A DNA stretch of 64,000 nt from an uncultured Acidobacteriota bacterium (GTDB lineage: Bacteria > Acidobacteriota > Thermoanaerobaculia > UBA5066): assembly GCA_903845115.1 (NCBI GenBank), contig CAIMWE010000211.1, positions 1-64,000 on the forward strand, in the 5' to 3' direction. Made by a program: the position numbers and the translations under genes. Below the pieces are notes generated by a model. It saw only the letters and a program-made list of their open reading frames with translations. It was not told where the DNA came from and did no database searches. Of the stretch, positions 26,749 to 50,622 are shown in pieces. Each line of letters opens with the position of its first letter. Position 1 is the first letter of the stretch.

Positions 26749-27057
26749 CGCAACCCCTCCGTGCGTGGGAATACTACGACTCCACTGCGCAGGCGGCGCC
26801 GGCCGCCAGGTCGTCCGAACGAGTGACGCCCGACGGACTCGCGGAGGGCACCTTTGCCCATTCGCGGCGGGACCTCCTTCCCGAGCGTCGTCCCGGCCGA
26901 CCGCCCGGAGGCGATCTCCTCCGCGTGGCAAGTGTCGGAAGTCTTCTCGCCGGAAGTGAAAACCGGGGGCGAGCTGTTTTCCGAGATCGAGGCTGACAGG
27001 CCCGGCTCCACGGGCGGACAATGGACGAACGGACCTCGAGCTTCTCTTTATTGGAGG

Positions 27058-27537
27058 ATGTGGCTGGAGAAACTTCTGCTCTTCCAGGTCGCGGGAAGGC
27101 GATTCGCGCTTCCCCTGGCGGCAGTGCGCGAGGTGGTCCGGGCCGTGGCAGTCTCGCCGCTCCCCGGCTCCCCCCCGATCGTCGAGGGAATCGTCGACGT
27201 CCACGGAATGGCGGCGGCCGTCCTCGACCTCGGCGCCCGGCTCGGGACGGAACGGGGCGAGGTCTCCCCTTCCGACTTCATGATCGTGGCCTCGGCCGGA
27301 GAACGGCTCGTCGTCCTTCGCGTGAACGAGGTGGCCGGCATCGTCGAGCTGCCCGCGGATTCGATCGAGGCGGTGGGGGCGGTCACGTCCCGCGCCCCGG
27401 AAGGATTTCCGATCTCGGGGGTCGCCCACCTTCCCGACGGGCTGGCCTTGATCCACGACGTCGGGTCGTTCCTCCAGGCGGCGGAAGCGACGGAGCTCGA
27501 GGAAGCCCTGGCCTCTCGAGGGGGGGCCCTCGCGTGA
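27058..27537 (+). CDS. CheW coupling protein (WspB-like), first gene of the chemosensory operon
   Basis: A 159-residue single CheW domain: LLLFQVAGRRFALPLAAVRE, PGSPPIVEGIVDVHGMAAAV (the conserved region that docks to the receptor and kinase) and LRVNEVAGIVELP. CheW links the receptor tip to CheA. The start is uncertain: the ATG at 27058 has a GGAGG only one base before it, so the ribosome may use a site further upstream in the same open frame, which extends to 26854. The stop overlaps the GTG of the next gene (GTGA), showing translational coupling. It is the first gene of seven. Confidence 0.9.
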   Translation: MWLEKLLLFQVAGRRFALPLAAVREVVRAVAVSPLPGSPPIVEGIVDVHGMAAAVLDLGARLGTERGEVSPSDFMIVASAGERLVVLRVNEVAGIVELPADSIEAVGAVTSRAPEGFPISGVAHLPDGLALIHDVGSFLQAAEATELEEALASRGGALA

Positions 27538-28970
27538 TCGCGCTCGTCGAAGGGTGTCCCCGCGTCCAGCCTCCCTCCGGTCGAACGTCTTCGGCGGTCC
27601 TCGACCTGGTCCGCTCGCGGACGGGCCTCGTCTTCTCCGCCGCCCGGATGCCCGACGCCGAGGCGGGGATCCGGCGCGCCCTGGCCCGGGCCGGCTCGTC
27701 CGAGACCGCGTTCGTGGAGGACCTCCGGCGCAATTCGTCTCTCTTCAACGACCTCGTCGAGGAGCTGACCGTCGGCGAGACCTACTTCTTCCGGGAGCCG
27801 GGAAACTTCGATTTCGTGAGGCGCGCCGTCCTGCCCCTCCTCGCGGGAGAGGTGAGCCCGTCGCGGCCGCTCCGTGCCTGGAGCGCCGGGACGGCCACCG
27901 GGGAAGAGGCCTACTCGCTCGCAGTCCTCCTCCACCAGGGGGGCTTCGGGGAGCGTTCGACGATCCTCGGCACCGACATCTCGCAGGCGGCGCTCCGGTG
28001 GGCGGAGGAGGGCCGGTACAGGGCCTGGTCGGTCCGAGGGGAGGCGGAAGAGGCCTCGCGCGCCTTTCTCGCCCGGGACGGTGAGCTCTTCGTCGTCCCA
28101 CGGGCCCTTCGGCGCCGGGTGACGTTCCGGCAGCTGAACCTGGCCGAGGAGGTCTACCCGGACCCGGCCGCCGGACTCTCCGCGATGGACCTGATCTTCT
28201 GCCGGAACGTCCTGATCTACTTCGATCCCCCGACCGTCCGCGCCATCGCGCGGCGGCTCTACGACACCCTCGCCCCCGGAGGGTGGCTGGTGACCGCGTC
28301 GTCGGACCCGCCGCTCGGGAAGCTCGCCCCCTTCGAGGTCGTCGTCAACAGGGAGGGGGTCTTCTACCGCCGGCCCGGATCCCCGGGTGCGCCCGATCGA
28401 GAGCCTCCCCGCCCGGATCCACGGCGCCCGCTCGCCCCCCTTCCACCGGCCGCCGCAGCCCGCGCCGTTCCAGCGCCTGACCTCCTCGCCCAGGCCTCCC
28501 GAGCCTACGAACGGGGGGAGTGGTCCATCGCTGCCGAGCTCGCGGGGCAGCTTCCATCCGACCGCGCGGCGTGCGCGCTCCTGATCCGGTCGATCGCCAA
28601 CGCGAGAGGCCCGCTCGCCGCCTCGGAGAGCGCCGCCCGCTCCGCCGAGGCGCATCCGGACGCCCCCGAGTTCCCGTATTTCCGAGGCTTCTTCCTCGCG
28701 GCGGCCGGGCTCCCGGGCGAGGCCCTCGCCTCCTTCCGCCGGGCCCTTTACCTGGACCGTCGGCTGGCCGTCGCTCACTTCGGCACCGCCTCTGCCGGAG
28801 AGAAGCTCGGGGACCACGGCCTCGCGCGGCGCGGGTACCGCAACGCTCTCGGGATCGCCTCGGGGATGCCGCCCTCGGAGACCGTCCCCCTCTCCGACGG
28901 CGAGACGGCGGCACGGTTCGCCGAGGGGTGTCGGGCCCGCCTCGGATCCCTCCGGAAGGAAGGCTCGTGA
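27534..28970 (+). CDS. CheR methyltransferase with C-terminal tetratricopeptide repeats (WspC-like)
   Basis: A 478-residue protein beginning at GTG 27534. Residues about 15-95 are the CheR N-domain (LVEELTVGETYFFREPGNFD). The SAM domain follows with LRAWSAGTATGEEAYSLAVL, ILGTDISQAALRWAEEGRY and DLIFCRNVLIYFD. After a Pro-rich linker (about 285-315) come helical pairs typical of TPRs (YERGEWSIAAELAGQLPSDR, FRGFFLAAAGLPGEALASFR and AHFGTASAGEKLGDHGLARR). It would methylate the operon's receptor. The CheR-TPR form is the hallmark of WspC and of Frz-like systems. It overlaps both neighbours by four bases. Confidence 0.93.
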   Translation: MIALVEGCPRVQPPSGRTSSAVLDLVRSRTGLVFSAARMPDAEAGIRRALARAGSSETAFVEDLRRNSSLFNDLVEELTVGETYFFREPGNFDFVRRAVLPLLAGEVSPSRPLRAWSAGTATGEEAYSLAVLLHQGGFGERSTILGTDISQAALRWAEEGRYRAWSVRGEAEEASRAFLARDGELFVVPRALRRRVTFRQLNLAEEVYPDPAAGLSAMDLIFCRNVLIYFDPPTVRAIARRLYDTLAPGGWLVTASSDPPLGKLAPFEVVVNREGVFYRRPGSPGAPDREPPRPDPRRPLAPLPPAAAARAVPAPDLLAQASRAYERGEWSIAAELAGQLPSDRAACALLIRSIANARGPLAASESAARSAEAHPDAPEFPYFRGFFLAAAGLPGEALASFRRALYLDRRLAVAHFGTASAGEKLGDHGLARRGYRNALGIASGMPPSETVPLSDGETAARFAEGCRARLGSLRKEGS

Positions 28971-29525
28971 ACGGCTTCCGCGAGGTCGCCCTCCTGCTCG
29001 AGCAGCGGGCCCGCGTCCTGGCCCGGCGAATCGCGACGGACGACGACGCAGGGTCTCGCCTCTCCTTCCTGACGTTTCTCCTCGGGCAGGAGAGATACGC
29101 CATCGAAGCCGACGCCCTCGTCGAGGTCGCGCGCCCGGGGCCGATCTCGCCCCTTCCCGGCACGCCCCCCCATGTCGCGGGCCTGACGAACTTCCGGGGG
29201 GAGATCCTCCCGGTCTTCGACCTGGCCCTGCTCTTCGGGCTCCCCGGGAGCGTCCACACCCTCACCGCTCGTCTCCTCGTGGCGGGGCGGGAACGCCCGG
29301 AAGCCGGGCTTCTCGTGGATGCGGTCGAGAGGGTCGTGGATCTTCCCGCCGGAAGCGTCCAGCCGATGCTCCAGCCCCCCCCCTCCCGGTCTCCCCGCCT
29401 GGGCCCTCCGCGGGGTCACGGCGGATGCCATCATCGTCCTCGACGTCAACGCCCTCCTCGACGACGACCGGCTCGTGGCCGTGGGGGACGAGGACGCGCG
29501 CCACCAGCCTTCAGGTGAGGAGTGA
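28967..29525 (+). pseudogene. CheW coupling protein (WspD-like), interrupted by a frameshift at a run of nine C
   Basis: From GTG 28967 the frame encodes a CheW domain: an N-terminal helix, then LSFLTFLLGQERYAIEADAL, PPHVAGLTNFRGEILPVFDL and LLVDAVERVVDLPAGSVQPM. After CAG at 29382-29384 comes a run of nine C (29385-29393), beyond which this frame gives only Arg/Pro-rich shadow sequence. The missing CheW C-terminus is in the frame one base later: GLPAWALRGVTADAIIVLDV, ending at TGA 29523-29525. Eight C would restore one continuous protein of about 185 residues. This can be a sequencing or assembly slip, a real mutation, or a phase-variable or slippage site. The flanking genes are intact. Confidence 0.85.
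29385..29393 (+). repeat. Mononucleotide run of nine C inside the second cheW
   Basis: Nine consecutive C lie exactly at the point where the CheW reading frame changes. Runs of this length are prone to polymerase slippage and to sequencing error. The neighbouring codons are Gln before and Ser or Pro-Gly after, depending on frame. Confidence 0.9.
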
Positions 29526-29530
29526 TTTCG

Positions 29531-31180
29531 ATGAACCAGATCCGTTTCTCGGTCGGTTGGAGGCTCGCCTCCGGATTCGCGATCTCCCTGGCCATCCTCA
29601 CCATCGTGGGGGGGATCGCCTACCGGAACACCGTCCTCCTCGTCGAGGCGACCTCCCGGCGCGCCCATGCGAGGTCCTCGGTCCTCGCCTACGAGCAGGC
29701 GGTCTCGTACGTCCGGGACGCCGTCAACGCGGAGAGGGGCTACCTCATCACCGGGGACGAGAGGTTCAACCGGGAGTTCCTCGCCGCTGTGGCGGCGGCG
29801 CAGAAGGGTCTGCAGAAGGTGCGCGACATGAGCGCCGGCGACACGGGCCAGCTAGCGCGGCTCGAGGAGGTGGAACCGCTGACCCGGAAGGTCGTGGAGA
29901 TCCTCAGGGAGAGCATCGACCTGAGGGGCCGGAAGGGTTGGGAGGAGTCCGCGGCCGCCGTGAAGGAGCAGCGGACGAGGCCGCTCATGGACGACATCCT
30001 CAGGATCGCCAAGGCGATGGCCGACGAGGAGTCGGGGGTCCTCGCCCGTCTGACGGCCGAGGCGACCGCGACCTCCGAGCGGACCCTCCGGACGATCGTC
30101 TGGGGAACCGCCGTCGCCTTCCTCCTCGTCTCGATCGCGGGCTTCTTCCTCACGAGGGGCCTGACGAAGCCGCTCGCCGGGCTGGTCGACGGTGCGCGGA
30201 GGTTCGGAAGCGGAGAGGCCTCCCACCGGATCCCCGTCCTGTCCAACGACGAGATCGCGGACGTGGCAGTCGCCTTCAACGCCATGGCCGCGAGCCTGGA
30301 GGCGAGCGCCGCCACGGAGGGGCAGGCCCGCGCCCGCTCGGAGAGCCTGCTCGGGACCATTCGCGAGACGGCGGTGAGGCTCTCCTCCTCCTCCGTCGAG
30401 CTGCTGGCGGCCACGAGCCAGCAGGCCGCCGGGATCCAGGAGCAGGCCGCCGCGGTCTCCGAGACCGTCAGCACCGTCGAGGAGGTCTCCCACGTGGCCG
30501 AGCAGCTCTCCCAGCGGGCCGGGATCGTGGCCGACTCGGGACGGCGGGCGGACGACGTCGGGAAGGCCGGCTGGAAGGCGGTGGAGGAGGCGGTGGCGGC
30601 GATCGCCGGCGCGAAGGGGCAATCGGAGAAGACGGCCGCATCCATCGTGGTCCTCGCGGGGCAGGCCCAGGCCATCGGCGAGATCATCGCTGCGGTCAAC
30701 GAGATCGCCGAGCAGACGAACCTCCTGGCCCTGAACGCCGCCATCGAGGCGGCGCGGGCCGGCGAGCAAGGACGCGGGTTCTCCGTCGTCGCCTCGGAGA
30801 TCAGGGCCCTGGCCGACCAGTCGAAGAAGGCGACCGGACAGGTCCGCCAGATCCTGGGCGACATCCAGAAGTCGACCAACTCGGCGGTCATGGCAGCCGA
30901 GGAAGGGAACCGCGAGGTGGGGGCGGCGGCCCGGACGGCGGCCGTCGCGGGCGAGACGATCCGGGCCCTGAACGAGACGGTGGCGGAGGCCGCCCAGCTC
31001 GCGGCTCAGATCGGCGCCTCGGCCGGCCAGCAAGCCGCCGGGATGGCGCAGATCCAGCTCGCCATGAGGAACATCAACCAGGCTTCCGTCCAGAGCCTCT
31101 CGTCGACGCGCCAGTCCGAGCTGGCGGCGGCCGATCTGAGCGCGCTGGGGGAGAGGCTCCGCAGGCTCCTCGAGGCCTGA
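29531..31180 (+). CDS. Methyl-accepting chemotaxis protein with CHASE3-like sensor (WspA-like)
   Basis: About 549 residues from ATG 29531, which has GGTGAGGAG upstream; a GTG nine bases earlier is the alternative start. There is one transmembrane helix at about 10-30, a periplasmic helical bundle of CHASE3/4HB type ([19 protein letters not shown]), a second helix at about 195-215 ([20 protein letters not shown]), HAMP, then a long signalling coiled coil. The conserved tip reads [20 protein letters not shown] at about residue 385, followed by [18 protein letters not shown]. It would sense a periplasmic or envelope cue and control the CheA kinase encoded next. No C-terminal CheR-tethering pentapeptide is visible. 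Confidence 0.95.
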
Positions 31181-31194
31181 GGAGGTCCCCGCGA

Positions 31195-33333
31195 ATGGAC
31201 CTTGCGAGGCTCCAGGCGAGGCTCATGGAGACCTATGTCGCCGAGCTGGAGGAGCACGTCGCGGAGCTGAACGGAGGGGCGCTCGCCCTGGAGTCCGAGG
31301 GAGACGCCGCCCGAAGGTCCGAGCTGGTCCGGACCCTCTTCCGGACCGCCCACAGCCTGAAGGGAGCGTCCCGGGCGGTGGAGCAGCCGGCCGTGGAGAA
31401 GGCCTGTCACCTCCTGGAGGGAGTCCTCTCGAAGGTCCGGGACGGCGTCCTCCCGTCCGGGCCCGCCCTCGTCGACATTCTCCTGAAGGGCGCGGACGCG
31501 TTCGCGGACGCCGCCTCACGCCTCCGCGCGAACAGGCCGGCAGAAGGGCCCCTTCTCGGCGCGCTGACGGAGGCCCTGGCGGCCGCCGAGGCGGGGAGCG
31601 CCGCCGCACCTGTCCGGCCTCCCCCCGCGCCCGCGGAGCAGGGAGGCGGCGGGACCGGGACACCTGCGGACGGGACGGAAGAGGCCGCGCCCGAGCCTGA
31701 GCCGCAGCGCGAAGCCGGGCGCACCGTCCGCGTCGCCTCCGCGAGGCTGGACGGCCTCCTCGCGCGGAGCGGCGAGCTGCGGCTCGTCCTGCGCCGCCTC
31801 CGCAGAGAGGCTACGTCCCTCGGTCAGCCCGCGGACGGAAGGGACGCAGCGGCGGGGGGACCGGCGGCCCCGGCCGCGAAGGGGTTCGACGCGCTCCTCG
31901 CCAGCGTTCGTGCGGCAGGACTGGCCGCGGACCTCCTCGACGGCGAGGTCCGTGCCCTGAGGCTCCTTCCGTTCTCCGAGGCGTGCGAGGCCCTTCCGCG
32001 GGCCGTGAGGGACGTCGCCCGGCTGACGGGTAAGGAGGCGACGTTCGCCATCGAGGGAGAGGGGGTCGAGATCGACCGCTCGGTCCTCCAGGCCCTGAAG
32101 GACCCGCTCCTCCACCTGGTGAGGAACGCGGTCGACCACGGCTCCGAGGGACCGGAGGAGAGGATGGCAGCAGGAAAGGCGCGCGCCGTCATCATCAAGG
32201 TGGCCGCGTCGCTGGAAGGCTCCCGGGTCCTCGTCCGCGTTTCCGACGACGGCCGCGGAATGGACCCCGCCGCCATCCGGGCGCGCGCGATCCGGACCGG
32301 TCTCCCGGTCCCCGAGGACGACGCCGAGGCGTTCCGGCTCGTCTTCCTCCCCGGCTTCTCCACGTCGGCCGCCGTCACGGGAATCTCGGGGCGCGGCGTC
32401 GGGCTGGACGTCGTGAGGTCCCGGGTCGAGTCCCTCGGTGGGTCGGTCGACGTCGCTTCCGTTCGCGGAGCGGGGACGACTTTCTCGCTTCGCGTCCCCC
32501 TCACCCTGACGGTCGTCCGGGCCCTCGTGGTGGAAGCGGGCGGACACCCCTTCGCCATCCCGTCCGCGGGCGTCGATCGCCTTCTCAGGGTCGCTCCCGA
32601 GGAGCTCCGGCCGGCCGGGGGGCGGGAGACGCTGCTCCTCGGAGGTCCCCCCGTGCCGGCCGTCTCGCTGGCCGGGGCGCTCGGCCTTCCCTTGCCCCCC
32701 GCGGCGAGTCCCGGACAGAAGATTCCGTTCGTCGTCCTCTCGGGGGACGGCAAGCAGGCCGCCTTCGCGCTCGACCGCGTCCGCTCGGAGGAGGAGATCC
32801 TCGTCAAGGAGCTGGGACCCCGCGTCCTCCACGTCCGTCACGTCTCCGGAGCGGCGGTCCTTCCGTCGGGCGAGGTGGCCCTCGTCCTCACCCCCCAGGC
32901 CCTCGTCCGGACGGCGCTCGCGCCCAGCGCCGGAGGAGGGGCGGTCCTCCGCGCGGAGAGGCCCGCGCCGCGCCGCCGCCTCCTCGTGGTCGAGGATTCC
33001 CCGACCATCAGGAGCCTCGAGCAGGCCATTCTCGAGGCCGCGGGCTACGCGGTCGTCGCGGCCCCGGACGGGGAGGAGGCGTGGCGCCTTCTCGGGGAGC
33101 GGGAGTTCGACGCGGTGGTGAGCGACATCGAGATGCCCTGGCTGGACGGGTTCGCCCTGACCGAGGCGATCCGCTCGTCGCCGCGCTTGGCGAAGCTCCC
33201 GGTCGTCCTCCTCACCTCGCGCGAGAGCGACGGCGACCGGGCCCGCGGGCTCGCGGCCGGAGCCGATGCGTATCTCGTGAAGAGCGCCTTCGACCAGGCC
33301 AATCTCCTGGAGACGATTTCCCAGCTCCTATGA
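31195..33333 (+). CDS. CheA histidine kinase with C-terminal receiver (WspE-like)
   Basis: A 712-residue hybrid CheA. The Hpt domain holds the phosphorylated His at residue 53 in FRTAHSLKGASRAVE. A Pro/Ala-rich linker of about 60 residues lacks an obvious CheY-binding P2 domain. Dimerisation helices follow from about 180 (VASARLDGLLARSGELRLVL), then the ATPase with LLHLVRNAVDHGSE, VSDDGRGMDP and GRGVGLDVVRSRVESLGG, then a CheW-like regulatory domain. The receiver (about 600-712) has LLVVEDSPTIRSLE, Asp in AVVSDIEMPWLDGF and Lys in AYLVKSAF. In Wsp and Frz systems this receiver acts as a phosphate sink or modulator. The stop overlaps the cheB ATG. Confidence 0.95.
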   Translation: MDLARLQARLMETYVAELEEHVAELNGGALALESEGDAARRSELVRTLFRTAHSLKGASRAVEQPAVEKACHLLEGVLSKVRDGVLPSGPALVDILLKGADAFADAASRLRANRPAEGPLLGALTEALAAAEAGSAAAPVRPPPAPAEQGGGGTGTPADGTEEAAPEPEPQREAGRTVRVASARLDGLLARSGELRLVLRRLRREATSLGQPADGRDAAAGGPAAPAAKGFDALLASVRAAGLAADLLDGEVRALRLLPFSEACEALPRAVRDVARLTGKEATFAIEGEGVEIDRSVLQALKDPLLHLVRNAVDHGSEGPEERMAAGKARAVIIKVAASLEGSRVLVRVSDDGRGMDPAAIRARAIRTGLPVPEDDAEAFRLVFLPGFSTSAAVTGISGRGVGLDVVRSRVESLGGSVDVASVRGAGTTFSLRVPLTLTVVRALVVEAGGHPFAIPSAGVDRLLRVAPEELRPAGGRETLLLGGPPVPAVSLAGALGLPLPPAASPGQKIPFVVLSGDGKQAAFALDRVRSEEEILVKELGPRVLHVRHVSGAAVLPSGEVALVLTPQALVRTALAPSAGGGAVLRAERPAPRRRLLVVEDSPTIRSLEQAILEAAGYAVVAAPDGEEAWRLLGEREFDAVVSDIEMPWLDGFALTEAIRSSPRLAKLPVVLLTSRESDGDRARGLAAGADAYLVKSAFDQANLLETISQLL

Positions 33334-34391
33334 AGGCGATCCGCGTTCTCGTCGTGGATGATTCGCCCACGGCGCGGGGGCTCCTCGTCGGAATCCTCCG
33401 CTCCGGGTCTGGCTTCGTCGTCGTGGGCGAGGCGGCCGACGGGTGGCGGGCCGTGGAGATGGCCACGCTCCTCAGGCCCGACGTGATCGTCATGGACATC
33501 CTGATGCCCGGACTCGACGGGTACGAGGCGACACGGCAGATCATGGCCAGCGCCCCGGTCCCGATCGTCCTCGTCACCGCCTCGGCGGGGGCCCGCGAGG
33601 TGAGCTTCTCTCTGAACGCCCTTCGCATCGGGGCCGTCGCGGTCCTTCCAAAGCCCGTCGGTCCCTCGAGCGAAGGTTTCTCCGGCGCCGCGGACGAGCT
33701 CGTCTGGACGGTTCGTGCGATGGCCAGCGTCAAGGTGGTGAGGCTCTACACCTCGGCCCTCCGTCGCGACCTCCCCGCCGGGCCGAAGGCTCTACCGGAC
33801 ATCCGGTTTCGCAGCGCCACCAGGCGGATCGTCGCCATGGCCGCTTCGACGGGCGGACCCGCTGCCCTCTGCCAGGTCCTCTCGTCGCTGCCAGGCGATT
33901 TCGCGGCCCCGATCCTGGTCGTCCAGCACATCTCGGCCGGGTTCACCGAGGGCCTCGTCGAGTGGCTGAGCGCGTCCTGCAAGCTCAGGGCGAAAGTGGC
34001 GGAAAGCCGGGAACCGCTCGAGCCAGGCGTGATCTACGTCGCGCCGGAGGAGAGGCACCTCGGGGCCGAGGGCCACGCGATCCTCGTCTCGGACGCTCCC
34101 CCCGTCGCCGGCTTCCGTCCCTCGGCGACCTTCCTCTTCGAGTCGGTCGCGGCCTCCCGGGGCCAGGACGTGGTCGCCGCCATCCTCACCGGCATGGGCG
34201 AAGACGGGGTCGAAGGGCTTCGGGCCGTCCGCCGCGCCGGCGGATGGGTCCTCGCCCAGGACGAGGCGACCTCGGTCGTCTTCGGAATGCCCGGCGCGGC
34301 CATCGCCGCCGGGTGCGCCGACGCGGTCGTTCCGCTCGACGCGATCCACGAACACCTGCTCGAAGCCGTCGGAAGGAGAGGGATCGCATGA
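33330..34391 (+). CDS. CheB protein-glutamate methylesterase (WspF-like)
   Basis: A 353-residue protein: a receiver (1-120; VLVVDDSPTARGLL, Asp in VIVMDILMPGLDGYEA, Lys in VLPKPVGPS), a linker, and the methylesterase domain from about 168. The catalytic residues are Ser in MAASTGGPAALC, His in VVQHISAGFTEGLVEWL and Asp in TGMGEDGVEGL. Phosphorylated CheB removes methyl groups from the receptor and gives adaptation opposite to the CheR-TPR protein. In Pseudomonas, loss of the homologue WspF locks the Wsp system on. It overlaps both the cheA and hybrid genes as ATGA. Confidence 0.95.
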   Translation: MKAIRVLVVDDSPTARGLLVGILRSGSGFVVVGEAADGWRAVEMATLLRPDVIVMDILMPGLDGYEATRQIMASAPVPIVLVTASAGAREVSFSLNALRIGAVAVLPKPVGPSSEGFSGAADELVWTVRAMASVKVVRLYTSALRRDLPAGPKALPDIRFRSATRRIVAMAASTGGPAALCQVLSSLPGDFAAPILVVQHISAGFTEGLVEWLSASCKLRAKVAESREPLEPGVIYVAPEERHLGAEGHAILVSDAPPVAGFRPSATFLFESVAASRGQDVVAAILTGMGEDGVEGLRAVRRAGGWVLAQDEATSVVFGMPGAAIAAGCADAVVPLDAIHEHLLEAVGRRGIA

Positions 34392-36613
34392 CGGGCGAGG
34401 AGACCTCCGGCCCCATCCGGGTCCTCGTCGTGGAGGACAGTCCGACGCAGGCGCAGAAGCTCGTCTTCGCCCTCGAGGACGCGGGCCTCGAAGCCGAGGT
34501 GGCGCGGAGCGCAGAGGCCGCGCTCGAGATTCTCCAGCTCCCCTCGGGGAGCCGGTTCGCAGCGGCCATCTCGGACGTGACGATGCAGGGGCTCGACGGC
34601 TTCGAGCTGTGCCGGCGGCTCCGGAACGATCGGCGCTTCGCCCGCTTCCCCTTCCTTCTTCTCACCACGATGGAAGATCCCGGGGAGGTCGTGCGCGGCC
34701 TCGAGTGCGGCGCGGACGGGTTCGTCTCGAAGCCCTACGACCCCGAGGAGATCGCCGAGCGCGTCCGATCGCTGGTCCGCTCGCGGCGCCTGCGCGACGC
34801 CGCTCCGGAGAGCGCTGCCTTCACGGCTCGCTTTCGGGGCAGGACGATTCGCGTCGAGGCCGGGCGGGAGCAGGCCGTCGACCTCCTCCTGCCGGCGCTG
34901 GAAGCGGCCCTTCGGACGGCCGGCCCTCTCGAGCCGGCCGGTGCGGAGCAGGCGACGGCGGCCCGGCTGGAAGAGCTGGAGGCCCGGCTCCGCGAGGAAG
35001 CCGCGAGGAATGAGGAGCTCCGGAAGAGCGCCGGGAGCCGCTCCCGCCCGCTCGACCCGCTGGCTTCCGAGATCCGGCTTCCGGTCGCCGAGCTCCTCAG
35101 GATGGCCGGAACCCTGGCTCAGACGCCGCTCTCCATCGCCCAGCGCGCGTACCTCTCGGCGATGCAGAGCTCGACGGAAGCCCTCCTGGCGGCCCTCGAC
35201 GACCTCGAGGACCGCTCGCGCCTCGAGGGCGGGCCGACCGTGGCGAAGGAGTCGGAGGTCGACGCCGGGAGGATCCTCGAGGACGTCGCGGCTCTCATCG
35301 CCGAGTCCGCGAGCGCCAAGGGACTGGAAGTGACCTGCTACGCCGGACCGGGGCTCGACGCGCTCAGGGGCGACGCGTCCCGCCTCCGCCAGGTGCTCCT
35401 GAATCTTGCACGCAACGCGGTGAAGTTCACGACCGAGGGCGTGGTCTCGCTGTCGGCGCATCTCGAGCGCGAGGAAGGGGACGGCGGGGCCGTTCGCTTC
35501 GAGGTCAAGGACACGGGGATCGGGATCGCCCCTCCGGGGAGGGACCGCCTCTTTCACCCTTCGACCGGAGACGGCCCCGCGGCGCCGGGTCCGGCGAGCA
35601 CCTCCCGCGGCCTCGCCGTCTCCCGCCAGCTCGTGGAGCTGATGGGAGGCTCGATCGGCGTCGAGAGCGCCCCCGGCGAGGGTTCCACCTTCTGGTTCAC
35701 GGCCCGCTTCCCGCGAGCCGGCGGCGTTCCGTCCCGCCCTCGAGACGCCCGCCTGGACGGAAAGAGCGTGCTCGTGATCGACGATTGCGCCGCGTCGCGC
35801 GACGCGCTGACCCGCATCCTCGCGGATCGGGGGATGGCCGCGACCCAGGCCGAGGAGGCTGGCATGGGCCTCGAGGCGGTCCGTTCGGCCGCGCGTTCCG
35901 GCAACCCGTTCGCGGTCGTCCTCCTCGACCTGACGCTCCCCGGCAGCAGCTCCCTCGGCTTCGTGCGCGACGCCTCCCTGGAGCTCGGACGCTCCGCTCC
36001 GCCGGTGGTTCTCCTCACGTCGTCGGCCCGCCGCAGGAAGAACGACGACTCCTTCGAATCGGCTGGCGTCACGGCGTGGCTTCCGAAACCGGTCCGCCGG
36101 GCGGTCCTCTTCGAGACGATCGCTCACGTCCTGGAGGAGCGCGGCACCGAGGTCCGCCCTCCCGGATGGCTGTCTGGCCCCGAGTGGGACAGGCCGGTTC
36201 CCGCAGCGCGGAAGGGCCTCGTTCTCGTCGCGGAGGACAACAAGGTCAACCAGCGCGTCGCGACCATCCAGCTGGACCGCCTCGGCTACGACGCCGACGT
36301 CGTGGGCACCGGGCTGGAGGCCGTCGCCTCGGCCATGTCCCGCCCGTACGGCCTCGTCCTGATGGACTGCGAGATGCCCGGGATGGACGGGTTCGAGGCG
36401 ACGCGGGAGATCCGGAAGCGCGAGGGGACCGATCGTCACCTCCCGATCCTCGCGATGACGGCGCATTCCTCGGCAACCGAGATGGACCGTTGCCTCGCCG
36501 CCGGAATGGACGGGTTCCTCCAGAAGCCGCTCAGCCTCGGGACCCTCGAGGAAGCGATCAGCCGGTGGTGGGCCTCGCCGTCTCCGACCCCTTCCCCCGA
36601 CCCGGGGCAGTGA
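34388..36613 (+). CDS. REC - degenerate kinase core - REC - REC hybrid protein, last gene of the chemosensory operon
   Basis: A 741-residue soluble protein. Receiver 1 (about 8-130) has VLVVEDSPTQAQKL, Asp in AAISDVTMQGLDGF and Lys in FVSKPYD. A coiled coil leads to a HisKA-like helix pair where the usual SHEIRTPL box reads ASEIRLPV, so the phosphoacceptor His is replaced by Ser. The ATPase domain keeps NLARNAVKFT and DTGIGI but has a weak G2 box (SRGLAVSRQLVELMGG). Receivers 2 and 3 keep their Asp (VVLLDLTLPGSSS; VLMDCEMPGMDGFEAT) and Lys (WLPKPV; FLQKPL). It takes the place of WspR but has no GGDEF domain. It probably receives phosphate from the operon's CheA and acts as a phosphate relay or sink, or by binding partners. 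Confidence 0.92.
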   Translation: MTGEETSGPIRVLVVEDSPTQAQKLVFALEDAGLEAEVARSAEAALEILQLPSGSRFAAAISDVTMQGLDGFELCRRLRNDRRFARFPFLLLTTMEDPGEVVRGLECGADGFVSKPYDPEEIAERVRSLVRSRRLRDAAPESAAFTARFRGRTIRVEAGREQAVDLLLPALEAALRTAGPLEPAGAEQATAARLEELEARLREEAARNEELRKSAGSRSRPLDPLASEIRLPVAELLRMAGTLAQTPLSIAQRAYLSAMQSSTEALLAALDDLEDRSRLEGGPTVAKESEVDAGRILEDVAALIAESASAKGLEVTCYAGPGLDALRGDASRLRQVLLNLARNAVKFTTEGVVSLSAHLEREEGDGGAVRFEVKDTGIGIAPPGRDRLFHPSTGDGPAAPGPASTSRGLAVSRQLVELMGGSIGVESAPGEGSTFWFTARFPRAGGVPSRPRDARLDGKSVLVIDDCAASRDALTRILADRGMAATQAEEAGMGLEAVRSAARSGNPFAVVLLDLTLPGSSSLGFVRDASLELGRSAPPVVLLTSSARRRKNDDSFESAGVTAWLPKPVRRAVLFETIAHVLEERGTEVRPPGWLSGPEWDRPVPAARKGLVLVAEDNKVNQRVATIQLDRLGYDADVVGTGLEAVASAMSRPYGLVLMDCEMPGMDGFEATREIRKREGTDRHLPILAMTAHSSATEMDRCLAAGMDGFLQKPLSLGTLEEAISRWWASPSPTPSPDPGQ

Positions 36614-44277: not shown

Positions 44278-47200
44278 TCAGTGCGGCTCCGTCGCCCCTC
44301 CGTGCGTCACCGCCTCGACCGGCATCATCCCCTTGCGCCTCTTCCGCGCCGCCGAGACCCCCTCGCTCCACTCCCGGAACTCCTCCATGTAGACGTAGAA
44401 GACCGGGGTGACGAAGAGCGTCAGGAGCTGCGAGAAGACGAGGCCTCCCACCACCGCCAGCCCCAGCGGCCGGCGCGACTCGGCGCCGGCGCCCAAGCCG
44501 AGGGCGATCGGGAGCGTCCCCATCAGGGCCGCCATCGTCGTCATCATGATCGGCCGGAAGCGGACGACGCAGGCGTCGAAGATCGCCGTGGGGGCGTCCT
44601 TCCCCTCGCGCCGCGCCTCGATCGCGAAGTCGACCATCATGATCCCGTTCTTCTTGACGAGGCCGACCAGCATGATGACGCCGACGAAGGCGTAGATCGA
44701 CAGCTCCACGTTGAAGACCAGCAGCGTCACGAGGGCGCCGAAGCCGGCGAACGGCAGGGCCGAGAGGATCGTCAGGGGGTGGAGGAAGCTCTCGTAGAGG
44801 ATCCCCAGCACCATGTAGATGACGAGGATCGCCACGAAGAGGAGGAGGCCGAGCCCCTTGAACGACGACTGGAAGGCCTGCGCGGTCCCCATGAAGCTCG
44901 TCTTCACCGAGGCGGGGAGCTCCTGCCGCGCCAGCTTGTCCACGGCGGCCACCGCGTCCCCGATCGCCGCCCCTTCCTTCAGGTTGAACGAGATGGTGAC
45001 GGCGGGGAGCTGCCCGGCATGGTTGACCGTGAGCGGCCCGGTCCCCTCCTTCATCCGCGCGACCGACGCCAGAGGGACGAGCCCCCCCTTCGCCGACCGG
45101 ACGTAGAGGAGCGAGAGGGCCGAGGGGTCCCGCTGGAACTGGGGCTGGACCTCCATGATCACCTGGTACTGGTTGTTCGGCGCGAAGATCGTCGAGATCT
45201 GCCTCGAGCCGTACGCCGTGTAGAGGGCGTCCTCGATCCGGGCGGCCGAGAGCCCGACGACAGCCGCCTTGTCGCGGTCGATGTCGATGACGACCTGCGG
45301 GTTCTTCAGCTGGAGGTCCGAGGTGACGTCCAGCAGCCCCGGGACCCCCTTCATCTTCTCCTCGAGCAGGGGGGCGTACCTGTAGAGCTCCTCCGTGTCG
45401 GGGTTCTGGAGGGTGTACTGGTACTGGCTCTTCGTCAGGTTGCCGCCGATCCGGATGGGGGGCGGGTTCTGCAGGAAGACGCGGATGCCCGGGATCTCCG
45501 CCAGCTTCGGGCGGAGGCGGGCGATGACCTGCTCGGGAGTGGCCTTCCGCTCGGACCGGGGCTTGAGCCGCCCGAAGATCGTCCCCGAGTTGTTGGCGTT
45601 GACGTTGTTGCCCCGGTTCCCGCAGTTCGACATGAACCCGGCGAAGGCCCCGTCCTCGGCGATGACCGTCGCGACCGCCTTCTGGTGCGTGACCATCGAA
45701 TCGAACGAGATCCCCTGGGCGGCCTCGGTGAAGCCGAAGAGCTGGCCGATGTCGTCGCTGGGGAGGAATCCCTTCGGAATCCGGACGAAGAGCCAGCCAG
45801 TGGCCAGGAGGACGAGGCCCGAGAAGGCCATCGTCGCCCGGCGGTGGCCGAGCGCCCAGCCGAGCCCCTTCTGGTAAACGTGGAGCATCCCGTCGAAGAA
45901 GCCCTCGAGGGCGTTGTAAACCCGCCCGTGCCGCTTCTGCTCCGCGTGGGGCTTGAGGAACCGGCTGCAGAGCATCGGGGTCAGGGAGAGCGAGACGAAG
46001 CCCGAGACGAGGATCGCGACGCCGATCGTGACGGCGAACTCCCGGAAGAGGCGGCCGACGATCCCCCCCATGAAGAGGACCGGGATGAAGACGGCGGCCA
46101 GCGAGATCGTCATGGAGAGGATGGTGAATCCGATCTCCTTGGAGGCCGCGAAGGACGCCTCCATCACTCCCTGCCCCAGCTCGATGTGCCGGACGATGTT
46201 CTCGAGCATGACGATGGCGTCGTCGACGACGAAGCCGACCGAGAGGGTGAGCGCCATCAGCGAGAGGTTGTCCAGCGAGTAGCCGAGGAGGTACATGACG
46301 GCGAAGGTGCCGGCGATCGAGAGGGGCAGCGCGAGGCTCGGGATGATCGTGGCCGACAGGTTCCGGAGGAAGAGGAAGATGACGAGGACGACCAGGGCGA
46401 GCGTCAGCAGGAGGGTGAACTGGACGTCGTCCACCGACTCGCGGATCGACTGCGACCGGTCGAAGAGGATGTCCAGCTTGGCGGAGGCCGGGATCTGCGT
46501 CTGGAACGTCGGGAGGAGCTTCTTGATCTCCTCGACGACCGCCACCGTGTTCGTCCCCGGCTGCTTCTGGACCGCCAGGACGACGGCCCGCTTCCGGTTG
46601 AACCAGGCGGCCGTCTTGTCGTTCTCCACGCTGTCGAGCGACTCCCCGATCTCCGAGAACTTCACCGGCGCCCCGTTCCGGTAGGCGACGGTCACCGGAC
46701 GGTAGTGGTCCGCCACCATCAGCTGGCCGGTCGCCTCCACCGTCATCGCCTGGCTGGACCCCCAGAGGGTCCCGGTCGGGAGGTTCACGTTGGCGGCCCG
46801 GATGGCGTCGGCCACCTCGTCGATCCCGATCCCCTTCGTCGCCAGGGCGAGCGGGTCGACCTGGAGGCGGACGGCGTACTTCTGCGAGCCGAAGACCTGC
46901 ACCTGCGCGACGCCGCTGACGGTGGAGATCCGCTGGGCCATGTTCGTCTGGGCGAACTCGTCGATCGTGGAGAGGGGGAGCGTCTCCGAGTGGAGCGCGA
47001 GGTAGAGGACCGGCTGGTCGGCCGGGTTGACCTTGAAGTAGACCGGCGGGGCCGGCATGTCGGGAGGGAGCTGCCGGGACGCGGCGGTGATCGCGGCCTG
47101 GACGTCCTGGGCCGCGGCGTCGATGTTCCGGTCGAGGGAGAACTGGAGGGTGATCTGCGTCAGGGCCAGGATCGACGACGAGGTCATCGAGTCGAGCCCG

Positions 47201-47424
47201 GCGATCGTCGTGAACTGCCGCTCGAGCGGAGTCGCCACGGCCGAGGCCATCGTCTCGGGGCTGGCCCCGGGGAGGCGCGCCATCACCTGGATCGTCGGGA
47301 AGTCGACGTTCGGGAGGTCGGAGACCGGCAGCAGCCGGTACCCCATGATCCCGAAGACGAGGATGGCCATCATGACGAGGGTCGTCATGACCGGCCGGCG
47401 GATGAAGAGGGCCGAGAGGTTCAC
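44278..47424 (-). CDS. RND multidrug efflux permease (AcrB/MdtB-like)
   Basis: A 1048-residue inner-membrane transporter starting at GTG 47424. It opens with LSALFIRRPVMTTLVMMAIL and NVDFPTIQVMARLPGASPET, the HAE1 pattern. The proton-relay Asp pair is in SVGFVVDDAIVMLENIVRHI and the relay Lys in LVGLVKKNGIMMVDFA. Two large periplasmic loops lie after helices 1 and 7, as usual. It exports hydrophobic or amphiphilic compounds across both membranes with the adaptor and outer-membrane protein encoded just upstream. Its start overlaps the adaptor stop by four bases. The operon is headed by a TetR regulator. Substrate range cannot be read from sequence. Confidence 0.96.
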   Translation of the reverse strand: MNLSALFIRRPVMTTLVMMAILVFGIMGYRLLPVSDLPNVDFPTIQVMARLPGASPETMASAVATPLERQFTTIAGLDSMTSSSILALTQITLQFSLDRNIDAAAQDVQAAITAASRQLPPDMPAPPVYFKVNPADQPVLYLALHSETLPLSTIDEFAQTNMAQRISTVSGVAQVQVFGSQKYAVRLQVDPLALATKGIGIDEVADAIRAANVNLPTGTLWGSSQAMTVEATGQLMVADHYRPVTVAYRNGAPVKFSEIGESLDSVENDKTAAWFNRKRAVVLAVQKQPGTNTVAVVEEIKKLLPTFQTQIPASAKLDILFDRSQSIRESVDDVQFTLLLTLALVVLVIFLFLRNLSATIIPSLALPLSIAGTFAVMYLLGYSLDNLSLMALTLSVGFVVDDAIVMLENIVRHIELGQGVMEASFAASKEIGFTILSMTISLAAVFIPVLFMGGIVGRLFREFAVTIGVAILVSGFVSLSLTPMLCSRFLKPHAEQKRHGRVYNALEGFFDGMLHVYQKGLGWALGHRRATMAFSGLVLLATGWLFVRIPKGFLPSDDIGQLFGFTEAAQGISFDSMVTHQKAVATVIAEDGAFAGFMSNCGNRGNNVNANNSGTIFGRLKPRSERKATPEQVIARLRPKLAEIPGIRVFLQNPPPIRIGGNLTKSQYQYTLQNPDTEELYRYAPLLEEKMKGVPGLLDVTSDLQLKNPQVVIDIDRDKAAVVGLSAARIEDALYTAYGSRQISTIFAPNNQYQVIMEVQPQFQRDPSALSLLYVRSAKGGLVPLASVARMKEGTGPLTVNHAGQLPAVTISFNLKEGAAIGDAVAAVDKLARQELPASVKTSFMGTAQAFQSSFKGLGLLLFVAILVIYMVLGILYESFLHPLTILSALPFAGFGALVTLLVFNVELSIYAFVGVIMLVGLVKKNGIMMVDFAIEARREGKDAPTAIFDACVVRFRPIMMTTMAALMGTLPIALGLGAGAESRRPLGLAVVGGLVFSQLLTLFVTPVFYVYMEEFREWSEGVSAARKRRKGMMPVEAVTHGGATEPH

Positions 47425-48572
47425 CTCTTCGCCCCCCCGGCGGGCGGATCGGTCTCCCGAGCCGGCTTGACGCCGGGGACGTCTTCCTTGATCGAGACCC
47501 GGACCCCGGGGGCGAGGCGGATCTGGCCGTCCACGGCGACGGTCTCGCCCGGCTCCAGCCCCCTGGAGACGACGGTGAGGCTCTTCCAGTTCCGGACGAC
47601 GGTGACCGGGCGGAGGTCGGCCGTCCGGTCTTCCTTCACGACGAAGACGTAGGTCCCCACCTGTCCTTTCTGGATGGCGTCCGTCGGGACCACCGTGACC
47701 GCGGCGTCCGTCGCGAGGTTGAGGGCCACCTGGGCGAACTGGCCCGGCCAGAGGGCCCGGTCCCGGTTGGCAAAGGTCGCCTTGAGGGTGATGGTCCCGG
47801 TCGTCGGGTCGACCGCGTTGTCGACGAAGGTCAGCTCGCCCTCGTGGGGCGCGCCTCCCGGCGGGGTGGCGGTGACCCTCAGCGCCCCTTCCCGAGACCG
47901 GGCCTTCACGTCGCCGAGGACCCGCTCCGGGACCGCGAACGAGACGCGGACCGGCTCGATCTGGTTCAGGACGACGAGCGCCCGGTCGTCCCCGGCCTTC
48001 ACGACGTTCCCCGCGTAGACGAGGAGGCTCCCGGCCCTCCCGGCCACGGGCGATTCGATCTGGCAGTAGGCGAGGTTCAGCCGCGCCTGCTCCACTGCCG
48101 CCTCGTCGCCGACGACGGTGGCCTTCAGGGCCGCGCTGTTGGCGCGCGCGCCGTCGAGCTGCTCCTGGGTGACGTACTCCTTCTTGATCAGCTCCTCGTA
48201 CCGCGCGAGCGTCCGCTCGGCCTCGGCCTGCCGCGCCCGGTCCCGCTCGAGGCTCGCCTTCGCCTGGGCGAGGGCCGCCTCGAAGGGCCGGGCGTCGATC
48301 TGGAAGAGGAGCTGCCCCGCGGAGACGTCCTCCCCTTCCTGGAACCCGACCTTCAGGATCACGCCGCCGACCTGCGGCTTCACGGAGACGATGGAGCTCG
48401 CCTCCACGTGCCCGACGGCCGCCACCTCGAGCGGAACCGCCTGGCGAGCCACCTTCGCCACCCGGACCGGAGCGTCGGCAGGGGGAAGCTTCTTGGCCGC
48501 CCCCCCACCGCACGCGGAGAGGACGAACGAGAGCGCGACGGCGCCCGGGACGAGGACCTTGTTCGGCGTCAT
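47421..48572 (-). CDS. RND periplasmic adaptor (membrane fusion protein), lipoprotein
   Basis: A 383-residue protein with a lipobox (ALSFVLSAC). Domains follow the usual order: barrel-sandwich half (VSVKPQVGGVILKVGFQEGE, QLLFQIDARPFEAALAQAKA), alpha-helical hairpin (about 105-165), the second lipoyl half (YCQIESPVAGRAGSLLVYAG), beta-barrel and membrane-proximal domain to the C-terminus. It bridges the RND pump and the TolC-like protein. The ATG overlaps the stop of the TolC gene, and its own stop overlaps the pump GTG, so stoichiometric coupled translation is likely. Confidence 0.95.
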   Translation of the reverse strand: MTPNKVLVPGAVALSFVLSACGGGAAKKLPPADAPVRVAKVARQAVPLEVAAVGHVEASSIVSVKPQVGGVILKVGFQEGEDVSAGQLLFQIDARPFEAALAQAKASLERDRARQAEAERTLARYEELIKKEYVTQEQLDGARANSAALKATVVGDEAAVEQARLNLAYCQIESPVAGRAGSLLVYAGNVVKAGDDRALVVLNQIEPVRVSFAVPERVLGDVKARSREGALRVTATPPGGAPHEGELTFVDNAVDPTTGTITLKATFANRDRALWPGQFAQVALNLATDAAVTVVPTDAIQKGQVGTYVFVVKEDRTADLRPVTVVRNWKSLTVVSRGLEPGETVAVDGQIRLAPGVRVSIKEDVPGVKPARETDPPAGGAKR

Positions 48573-50026
48573 GGCGTGTCCTTCTTCAGCTGCGGAATCG
48601 AGGGGAGCCCCAGGGCCCCGGCGTCGTGGGCGAGCTGGGCGAGGGTGACGAGGAAGCTGGCGCGCGCCTGGACGTCGGTGGAACGGGCGCCGGCCAGCGC
48701 CGACTCGGCGGCGAGAAGGTCCAGGATGCTCCCCACTCCCGCCTTGTACCGTCCGAGGGCTACCTCCTCCGACTCCTGGGCGCTTCCGAGGAGGTCCTTG
48801 GCAGCCCGAATCTTCTGCGCCGCGGTCTGGACCGAGTAGTAGCCCGACCAGATCTGGAGGCCGACCTGCTGGGCGAGGCTCTCGGTGAACGCGTCGGCGG
48901 CCTTCGCGTCCTCTTCCGCCCTCCTCGCGTCGTAGCTCTTCTGGAAACCGGTGAAGACCGGCCAGCGGAGGAAGAGGCCCGCCGAGTAGTTGTCCCCGAA
49001 GGACGTGACGGCGTCGGTTCCCTGGAAGTAGGCGCGGTTGTAGCCGGCGTTGCCCGAGAGGCTCGGCAGGGCGCCGGCCTTCACCGCCCTCGCCCGGCTC
49101 CAGAGGGAGGCCGCCCTGGACCGGGACGCGGCCAGGTCGGGGCGATCGGCGGCGGCCCGGGCGACCAGGTCGTCGACGCTGGGAGTCGACCCTTCCAGCC
49201 TCAGGCCGTCCGGCAGGTCGGTGACGTCGACCGGCACGTTGGCCGGAACGCCCAGCGAGGTCGCCAGGGCCCCCCGCGTCGTCTCGATCTGCCCGCGCGC
49301 CGACTCCACGTCGAACTTCCGCTGCGAGACGGTCGTCCTCGCCTGCAGGACGTCCGCGATGGTCGCCACACCGGCCCGCCGCCGCTCCTCGGCGGCCGTC
49401 AGGCTCTCCTCCGCCGCCTTCAGGCTCGACTCGCTGGCCAGCAGGAGGGCCCGGGCCGCCTGGTACCGATAGTAGGAATCCTGCACCAGGAGGACGACGT
49501 CGGCCACGGCGGCGTTGTGGGTGAAGTCCGCGGCGTAGAGCGCCTGCCGGGCCGCTTCCACGTCGGCCGACCGGGCGCCGAAGTCGAAGAGGATCCAGTT
49601 GAGGGCCGCCGACGGGCCGTAGGTCGTCAGGATCGCCTCCGCTTTGCCGCCGAGGGAGACCGTCTTCCCGCGGTTCGCCGCGGCGTCGATCTCCACGATG
49701 GGCCAGAAGAGGGCCTGCCGGCTCCCGACGTCCGCCGCCGCGCTCCGCGCGAGGCGCCAGCTCCGGTGCGTGAGCGGGTTCGTGGAGAGGGCGACGTCGA
49801 CCGCCTCGGCGAGCGAGATCGTGCGCTTCCCGGAGAGAAGCTCCGGCGGGATACCCGCGGGCGTCGCGGGCGGCGGCGACGGCCGGACCGCCTCGGGCGG
49901 GGGAGCCCAGGTCTTGCCGGGCGACGCGGGGGCGGACCGGTCGACGAACTCGGACGGCCGGGTGACGGAGCAGCCGGCCAGCAGGCCGCCGGCGAGCGCG
50001 AGGGGCAAGAGCGCCCGCCTCCTCAT
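48569..50026 (-). CDS. TolC-family outer-membrane efflux lipoprotein
   Basis: A 485-residue protein starting at the ATG at 50026, with a lipobox (LALAGGLLAGCS). Two tandem OEP repeats follow: TISLAEAVDVALSTNPLTHR, the helical barrel segments (ADVVLLVQDSYYRYQAARAL, RRRAGVATIADVLQARTTVS) and in the second repeat LPSLSGNAGYNRAYFQG and RYKAGVGSILDLLAAESALA. It forms the trimeric outer-membrane channel of the pump. A Pro-rich stretch follows the lipid anchor. The gene lies between the TetR regulator and the adaptor with four-base overlaps on both sides. Confidence 0.94.
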   Translation of the reverse strand: MRRRALLPLALAGGLLAGCSVTRPSEFVDRSAPASPGKTWAPPPEAVRPSPPPATPAGIPPELLSGKRTISLAEAVDVALSTNPLTHRSWRLARSAAADVGSRQALFWPIVEIDAAANRGKTVSLGGKAEAILTTYGPSAALNWILFDFGARSADVEAARQALYAADFTHNAAVADVVLLVQDSYYRYQAARALLLASESSLKAAEESLTAAEERRRAGVATIADVLQARTTVSQRKFDVESARGQIETTRGALATSLGVPANVPVDVTDLPDGLRLEGSTPSVDDLVARAAADRPDLAASRSRAASLWSRARAVKAGALPSLSGNAGYNRAYFQGTDAVTSFGDNYSAGLFLRWPVFTGFQKSYDARRAEEDAKAADAFTESLAQQVGLQIWSGYYSVQTAAQKIRAAKDLLGSAQESEEVALGRYKAGVGSILDLLAAESALAGARSTDVQARASFLVTLAQLAHDAGALGLPSIPQLKKDTP

Positions 50027-50604
50027 CGCGTCCCCGTCCCGACGCCGCGGAGGAAGAGGTCCGCGATCTGGACGGCGTACGTCGACGCCGTCTCCGAGTC
50101 GCGGTGGTAGGCCAGGGCGGACCGGACCATCCCGAGGAAGAGGTTCGCGGCGACTCTCGAATCGACCGCCCGGAAGGCGCCCGCCTCCACGCCCTTCTCG
50201 ATCGTCTCCTGCACGATCCGCTCGAGGTCGGCCCTCTTCCGCCGCACGGCCCGGTCCCGGTCCAAGAGCAGCTTCTCGTCCCGGTGAAGAAGCATGTAGA
50301 ACGGCCGGCGATTCCAGAACAGCTTCAGGACGTCGGCGGCGATCCGCTGGATCCGGTCCTCGGGCGTGCACTCCGGCGGGGCCGGCACCGGGAACGCTTT
50401 CGACAGCTGGTCGAAACCCCGCATCAGCGTGGCGAAGTAGAGCTCGTCCTTCGTCCTGAAATAGCGGTAGATCGTCCCCTTCCCGACCCCCGCCTCGGCG
50501 GCGATCTCGTCCGTGAGGACCGCGTGGAAGTCCTTGCGGGAGAAGACCTCCGCCGCGGCATCGAGGATCACGAGCCGCTTCTCTTCCGTCAGCTTTCTTG
50601 CCAT
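50023..50604 (-). CDS. TetR-family transcriptional regulator of the efflux operon
   Basis: A 193-residue protein with the TetR helix-turn-helix in EIAAEAGVGKGTIYRYFRTK (about residues 30-55), and an all-helical ligand domain (RRPFYMLLHRDEKLLLDRDR, VAANLFLGMVRSALAYHRDS). It is the first gene of the four-gene efflux operon, and its stop overlaps the TolC start. It probably represses the whole operon until a pump substrate binds. A near-palindrome centred 26 bases upstream is the likely operator. There is no ribosome site before the ATG and a TATATT lies eight bases upstream, so the transcript may be almost leaderless. Confidence 0.93.
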   Translation of the reverse strand: MARKLTEEKRLVILDAAAEVFSRKDFHAVLTDEIAAEAGVGKGTIYRYFRTKDELYFATLMRGFDQLSKAFPVPAPPECTPEDRIQRIAADVLKLFWNRRPFYMLLHRDEKLLLDRDRAVRRKRADLERIVQETIEKGVEAGAFRAVDSRVAANLFLGMVRSALAYHRDSETASTYAVQIADLFLRGVGTGTR

Positions 50605-50622
50605 GGCGCGGCAATATAACTG

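Follow-up and report, generated by a model that had tools for sequence, protein, structure and literature searches.

An ACF-class chemosensory operon of an uncultured Acidobacteriota bacterium with a disabled kinase as its predicted output

The coupling of chemosensory pathways to protein kinases has been described in several bacteria. In Rhodospirillum centenum, the Che3 system (CheA3-CheS3-CheY3) acts in cyst development, with CheA3 phosphorylating the REC1 domain of CheS3 and thereby restraining the CheS3 kinase (PMC3868531). Equally, multidomain response regulators with a kinase module are typical of CheR-TPR/ACF clusters (about 40%; PMC3447774), so that an output leading from a receptor array to a kinase is already known. 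Kinase folds can also serve in signalling without catalysis; a tested example is Caulobacter DivL, which recognizes a receiver in its phosphorylated state without acting as a kinase (PMC4211667). Here, we describe an operon in a window of 64,000 nucleotides, which is the whole stretch of DNA that was analysed (assembly GCA_903845115.1, contig CAIMWE010000211.1, positions 1 to 64,000), from an uncultured Acidobacteriota bacterium. Its gene set is that of a well-known family; the disabled kinase encoded by its last gene is the unusual part.

Seven genes, all on the forward strand between positions 27058 and 36613 and each confirmed by Pfam where a sequence-only reading had placed it, follow one another in the order cheW-cheR-cheW-MCP-cheA::REC-cheB (W-R-W-M-A-B) and a hybrid of receiver, pseudo-kinase, receiver and receiver. 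The genes are tightly coupled, with 4-bp overlaps at the junctions of the first cheW with cheR, cheR with the second cheW, cheA with cheB and cheB with the hybrid gene, and with spacings of 12 bp between the second cheW and the receptor gene and 14 bp between the receptor gene and cheA. A single, weak promoter-like site is located at 26993-27022, and a convergent DUF4143 gene lies 3' of the operon. The first CheW (27058-27537; Pfam CheW 91.7 bits) precedes the methyltransferase CheR (27534-28970; 132.6 bits) whose C-terminal extension is possibly a short TPR; of the CheR-TPR fusion read previously, the CheR part stands, while the TPR matches remain sub-threshold (best 15.3 bits against a Pfam cut-off of 32.7), such a fusion being frequent, not universal, in the ACF class. 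The chemoreceptor (29531-31180) consists of CHASE3, HAMP and MCPsignal domains (75.5, 48.9 and 121 bits). CheA (31195-33333) combines Hpt, HATPase, CheW and receiver domains (43, 67.9, 53.1 and 83.9 bits) and carries the motifs AHSLKG, RNAVDHG, DDGRGMD and GRGVGLDVV. The methylesterase CheB (33330-34391; CheB 203.1 bits, N-terminal receiver 75.2 bits) exceeds the cut-off of an NCBIfam CheB subfamily. The output protein of 741 amino acids (34388-36613; three REC matches 195.7 bits, HATPase 83.7 bits) is arranged as REC1, linker, pseudo-DHp, degenerate CA domain, REC2 and REC3. Elsewhere in the window, an AcrB-type RND pump gene adjoins an outer-membrane efflux gene (44281-50614, reverse strand), and an AdhE-like fusion of an aldehyde dehydrogenase to an iron-containing alcohol dehydrogenase is encoded at 949-3534 (forward strand).

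The second CheW (28967-29518; Pfam CheW 88.5 bits over 103 of 138 positions) is present as previously read, but its 3' end lies in another frame in the assembly, the shift occurring at a run of nine C (29375-29383). The C-terminal piece in this other frame (29397-29525) has a codon-position GC of 0.84/0.42/0.88 and, searched alone, matches the CheW2 C-termini of relatives (best E 6.8e-6). The frameshift is either a draft-assembly error, a true mutation or possibly a variable tract; the other six frames of the operon are open with normal codon-position GC.

The position of the pathway among chemosensory systems can be derived from its CheA. A FastTree phylogeny of 147 CheA-REC rows and an IQ-TREE phylogeny of 38 rows agree in placing the window CheA in a six-row clade (100/100) together with L120, the closest of the operons that have this gene order and a REC-kinase as last gene (CheA 54%), Anaeromyxobacter (L158), Corallococcus (L151), Gemmatimonadota (L165) and Planctomycetota (L152), the latter two being MAGs. 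A 13-row clade is shared with the CheA of Azospirillum oryzae (L214), a relative that stands here for R. centenum, the placement being that of the relative and not of R. centenum itself. The wider group of CheAs from W-R-W-M operons has moderate support (77/86). The Wsp CheAs form a separate clade (100/100), and forcing the window CheA into it is 35 log-likelihood units worse (AU p=0.022). Furthermore, the window CheA stands apart from the outgroup rows of Campylobacter/Helicobacter CheA-REC and of PilL-like proteins, and judged against these rows it belongs with the non-flagellar, non-pilus CheAs; CheA, CheW, MCP, CheR and CheB are moreover linked to a multidomain response regulator. As far as sequence comparison reaches, the operon is thus an ACF-class chemosensory pathway in the sister group of Wsp.

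Several earlier expectations can be judged on these grounds. The sequence-only reading had seen a Wsp system with its receptor moved to fourth place, an interpretation that is rejected by the CheA tree and the linker type, the order W-R-W-M-A-B-output being usual in the sister group. Equally, its view that the diguanylate cyclase WspR had been replaced is not supported, as hybrid kinases are the commonest sister-group output in the set read and GGDEF proteins are an alternative there; with this usual order and a REC-linked histidine kinase as the commonest output, the loss of a GGDEF state is not shown here. A placement of CheA among flagellar classes, which had been named as a refutation, was not observed, since the protein does not group with the flagellar-type Campylobacter/Helicobacter outgroup. 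No flagellin gene was found in the 96%-complete genome of the organism, by which a flagellar reading was rejected and the system looks non-flagellar.

Related operons were collected by anchoring the search on CheA in 149 genomes of the class, 396 genomes of the phylum and GTDB contigs, since searches with the whole hybrid mostly yielded HK-REC-REC paralogs matching from about residue 195 on. The suggestion to look for the same gene order in other genomes proved fruitful: the order W-R-W-M-A-B-output is widespread and its last gene variable. A REC-kinase is encoded last at L120, L123, L127, L128, L129, L141, L156, L160, L175 and further loci, a REC-GGDEF protein at L125, L133, L154, L167, L170, L185 and L191, and a receiver with linker but no effector at L132. 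The phosphorylatable His is kept in every sister-operon kinase output examined that has a complete DHp domain, and no orthologue of the pseudo-kinase was found at the CheA loci of the 149 class or 396 phylum genomes. Systems with a Wsp-like CheA have GGDEF proteins, SpoIIE-type phosphatases or class III cyclases as outputs. One such Wsp-like system with a REC-SpoIIE phosphatase instead of a GGDEF protein is present in the organism's own genome (L057, contig C67), and in Wsp-like operons of two genomes of the same family (L058, L085) the output gene fuses a receiver with a class III adenylate/guanylate cyclase. The own genome also has a second W-R-W gene set cut by the end of a 5550 bp contig (L277, C108), the receptor, CheA, CheB and output of which were not found, so that the assembly may be missing another such operon. 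CheB-CheR fusions are encoded on its contigs C194 and C132, with no CheA cluster around them as far as these contigs were read.

What the outputs of the W-R-W-M group have in common is a segment between receiver and effector, GVEIxFxGxxxxITSxRxQILDLLxSTYExAVxxN, that occurs regardless of the effector. The window protein holds a diverged copy (34811-34918) that scores 14.3 bits against an HMM from which the window was left out, the best of 1000 shuffles reaching 3.7 bits, and that is predicted to form a beta-hairpin and a helix. This linker was detected in 29 of 43 W-R-W-M outputs (18 kinases including that of the window, six GGDEF and five receiver-only proteins; groups defined by the tree) and in none of the 30 outputs of Wsp type. 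The latter have a linker of their own, RYHSRSYxxLLQRDEAY, which is present in 28 of them and in none of the 43 W-R-W-M outputs, and which has no match in the window output at E<=0.01. Since the set itself supplied the training members of the models, it is the mutual exclusion of the two linkers that is informative; the counts may also be slightly low, because at L155 and L166 the GGDEF gene taken was the first one downstream, though a REC-GAF-GAF-GGDEF gene follows CheB. A search of 297 phylum genomes with the linker model yielded 17 matches at E<=1e-4, of which 14 lie in che clusters, one at a contig end and two without che genes in the stretch read. Two REC-linker-kinase genes without che genes in the stretch read (L269:3135-5330 and L270:7524-9815) indicate that the linker can exist away from che clusters. 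In a member of the Planctomycetota (L231:826-1968, reverse strand), receiver and linker are, from reading the translation, fused to an apparent class III cyclase. No Pfam family covers the linker in the proteins scanned. Within this CheA group, it recurs in outputs that carry a kinase, a cyclase or no effector. Neither this lineage-specific linker nor a dead kinase as such an output was found described in the open-access literature searched.

As previously read, the output is a three-receiver pseudo-kinase and not a cyclase, which Pfam and a residue check confirm. All three receivers retain the acidic pair, the phospho-Asp, the Thr/Ser and the Lys, namely REC1 (34415-34792; ED pair, SDV, LLTT, SKPYD), REC2 (35759-36145; IDD, LLDL, LLTS, KPV) and REC3 (36212-36577; AED, LMDC, MTA, KPL). 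The kinase half, so far termed kinase-like, can now be characterized more sharply. Its HisKA hairpin (35051-35230) is detectable below the Pfam cut-off (20.1 against 26.9 bits), and the phospho-His position is occupied by Ser227 (35066-35068), where an alignment with 26 relatives has His in 25 and a gap in one; the SHEIRTPMN of the relatives reads ASEIRLPVA. In the ATPase domain (35252-35716; HATPase_c 83.7 bits), the N-box and DTGIGI are retained, but GGTGLGL of the ATP lid/G2 has changed to STSRGLA, with Ser at 404 and 406 in the place of two glycines kept in 24 of 25 relatives. With Ser227, Ser404 and Ser406, the catalytic competence of a Che3/CheS3-type output kinase is lacking. A sequencing error behind the loss of His was ruled out, as several DHp and lid residues differ and frame and GC3 are normal. 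GC3 is about 0.90 along the hybrid gene (codon-position GC of the DHp-CA part 0.73/0.54/0.90), which together with the intact receivers argues that its coding is maintained.

The hybrid ends after REC3 with no Hpt following, and without phospho-His and Hpt it can neither begin nor complete a phosphorelay alone. HK-REC-REC paralogs of the own genome, 35-41% identical, are followed by an Hpt (C93, C222, C15, C149, C109, C56); further Hpts lie near kinases on C102 and C169, and one clear stand-alone Hpt gene is found on C222. An AlphaFold2 model of the hybrid (mean pLDDT 82.6, pTM 0.53, 27 rows) retains the DHp helices (222-244 and 250-281) and the CA fold, with the lid at low confidence. Its Foldseek matches to solved structures include ShkA, GacS, RetS and DivL, generic kinase-fold matches from which a shared mechanism does not follow.

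The best explanation as a whole, to which we assign a probability of roughly 0.55, is an ACF array in which CheA addresses REC1 and the output, a dead kinase, exerts its effect on a bound partner. The membrane receptor with its CHASE3 domain, the two CheWs and CheA-REC would form the sensing complex, which CheR and CheB would adapt, and the C-terminal receiver of CheA probably drains phosphate, as suggested by R. centenum CheA3. In this view, the output gene joins an adaptor of ACF type, REC plus linker, to the kinase, receiver and receiver portion of a hybrid kinase resembling BarA/GacS, which has lost its phospho-His, ATP lid and Hpt. By analogy to CheA3 and CheS3, CheA most likely phosphorylates REC1, and possibly also REC2 or REC3; phosphorylation of REC1 would, via the linker, reshape a dimeric pseudo-kinase unable to autophosphorylate. 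Lacking the phospho-His and autophosphorylation, the output would have to act by binding, the likeliest targets being products of other loci, namely an active hybrid kinase, an Hpt protein or a further response regulator; the HK-REC-REC-Hpt paralogs and the stand-alone Hpt on C222 are putative partners. RetS of Pseudomonas acts on GacS and signals without being a phosphate donor, and partner binding is here modelled on DivL and RetS, which act through CckA and GacS. That the array drives the dead hybrid kinase as a phosphorylation-controlled binding switch, via an undescribed linker by which one CheA lineage can be coupled to kinases, to cyclases of the diguanylate or the adenylate/guanylate kind, or to no enzyme, is a more tentative proposal, held at clearly less than even odds.

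Other readings of the same features have been weighed. The receivers might merely drain CheA~P and thereby determine the timing at some other target, for instance a response regulator from another locus, with the dead kinase as a dimer scaffold. Three intact receivers in a hybrid without effector, His or Hpt agree with such a phosphate buffer, as does the description of the CheA3 receiver of R. centenum as a phosphate sink (PMC3868531); but CheA has a receiver of its own already, and the hybrid retains the folds of DHp and CA as well as the REC1 linker, for which a pure sink would have no use. This alternative is held to be unlikely, though it leads the others. Following it in likelihood, and likewise improbable, is a role as the middle step of a split phosphorelay, in which CheA would be the kinase and REC2 or REC3 would exchange phosphate with a stand-alone Hpt or an active HK-REC-REC-Hpt paralog. 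The intact receivers would permit it, as would the one clear stand-alone Hpt of the genome and its HK-REC-REC paralogs with an Hpt, at least six in number, but the operon has neither a linked Hpt nor a linked regulator, its downstream neighbour being the convergent DUF4143 gene.

Degeneration of the operon in this lineage, leaving it without present function, is given lower odds still. The cheW2 frameshift, if real, and the several losses in the kinase half including the Hpt could be read in this way; on the other hand, the catalytic residues are intact in CheA, in CheB and in each of the three receivers, the six remaining frames are undisturbed, and a homopolymer error in a draft genome would account for the frameshift. 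Finally, a c-di-GMP output through an unlinked diguanylate cyclase phosphorylated by the CheA of the operon, which had been named as a possible refutation, appears very improbable. The genome has 17 GGDEF matches, three of them with a clear receiver before the GGDEF domain, so that candidate partners do exist; however, two of these three REC-GGDEF genes adjoin hybrid kinases, none lies beside che genes in the stretches read, and operons of this CheA group that use a GGDEF protein usually encode it as their last gene. Of the earlier proposal of an output logic distinct from c-di-GMP control, the non-cyclase output is supported; kinase outputs of this pathway class were already known (PMC3447774, PMC3868531).

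The analysis separates two look-alike ACF lines, Wsp and W-R-W-M-A-B, each with its own conserved receiver-linker behind which effectors are swapped. The linker type can serve as a sequence handle to predict the response regulator addressed by an ACF CheA and, if functional, the dead-kinase output would make array-to-kinase coupling without kinase activity directly testable. Among known systems, Wsp of Pseudomonas and Burkholderia (WspA-F, WspR) has the same components up to CheB and is equally of ACF type, but its receptor comes first, followed by W-R-W-A-B-REC-GGDEF, and it has a separate CheA clade and another REC-effector linker, whereas the window has the order W-R-W-M-A-B and no GGDEF protein in the operon. 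DivL and RetS are likewise kinase-fold proteins that signal without phosphate donation, a likeness that for the modelled window protein is one of fold by Foldseek; neither is known to serve as the output of a receptor array or to possess an N-terminal receiver addressed by CheA. R. centenum Che3 shares CheA-REC, two CheWs, CheR, CheB and a single MCP, and its output is likewise a histidine kinase that bears receivers, but CheS3, with REC-REC-PAS, is an HWE kinase that is active and has a linked CheY3, whereas the window kinase is dead, with two extra receivers and no linked CheY. Loss of the phospho-His, as in the window kinase, is not mentioned for the REC-HK outputs of CheR-TPR/ACF clusters in the accessible part of PMC3447774. 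In Ca. Magnetominusculus LBB02, an output of the form REC-linker-HK-REC-REC is equally encoded by the last gene of an R-W-W-M-A-B operon (L183:8352-11741); it differs from that of the window in having PAS domains, in keeping its His (SHEIRTPMN) and in its GTGLGL lid.
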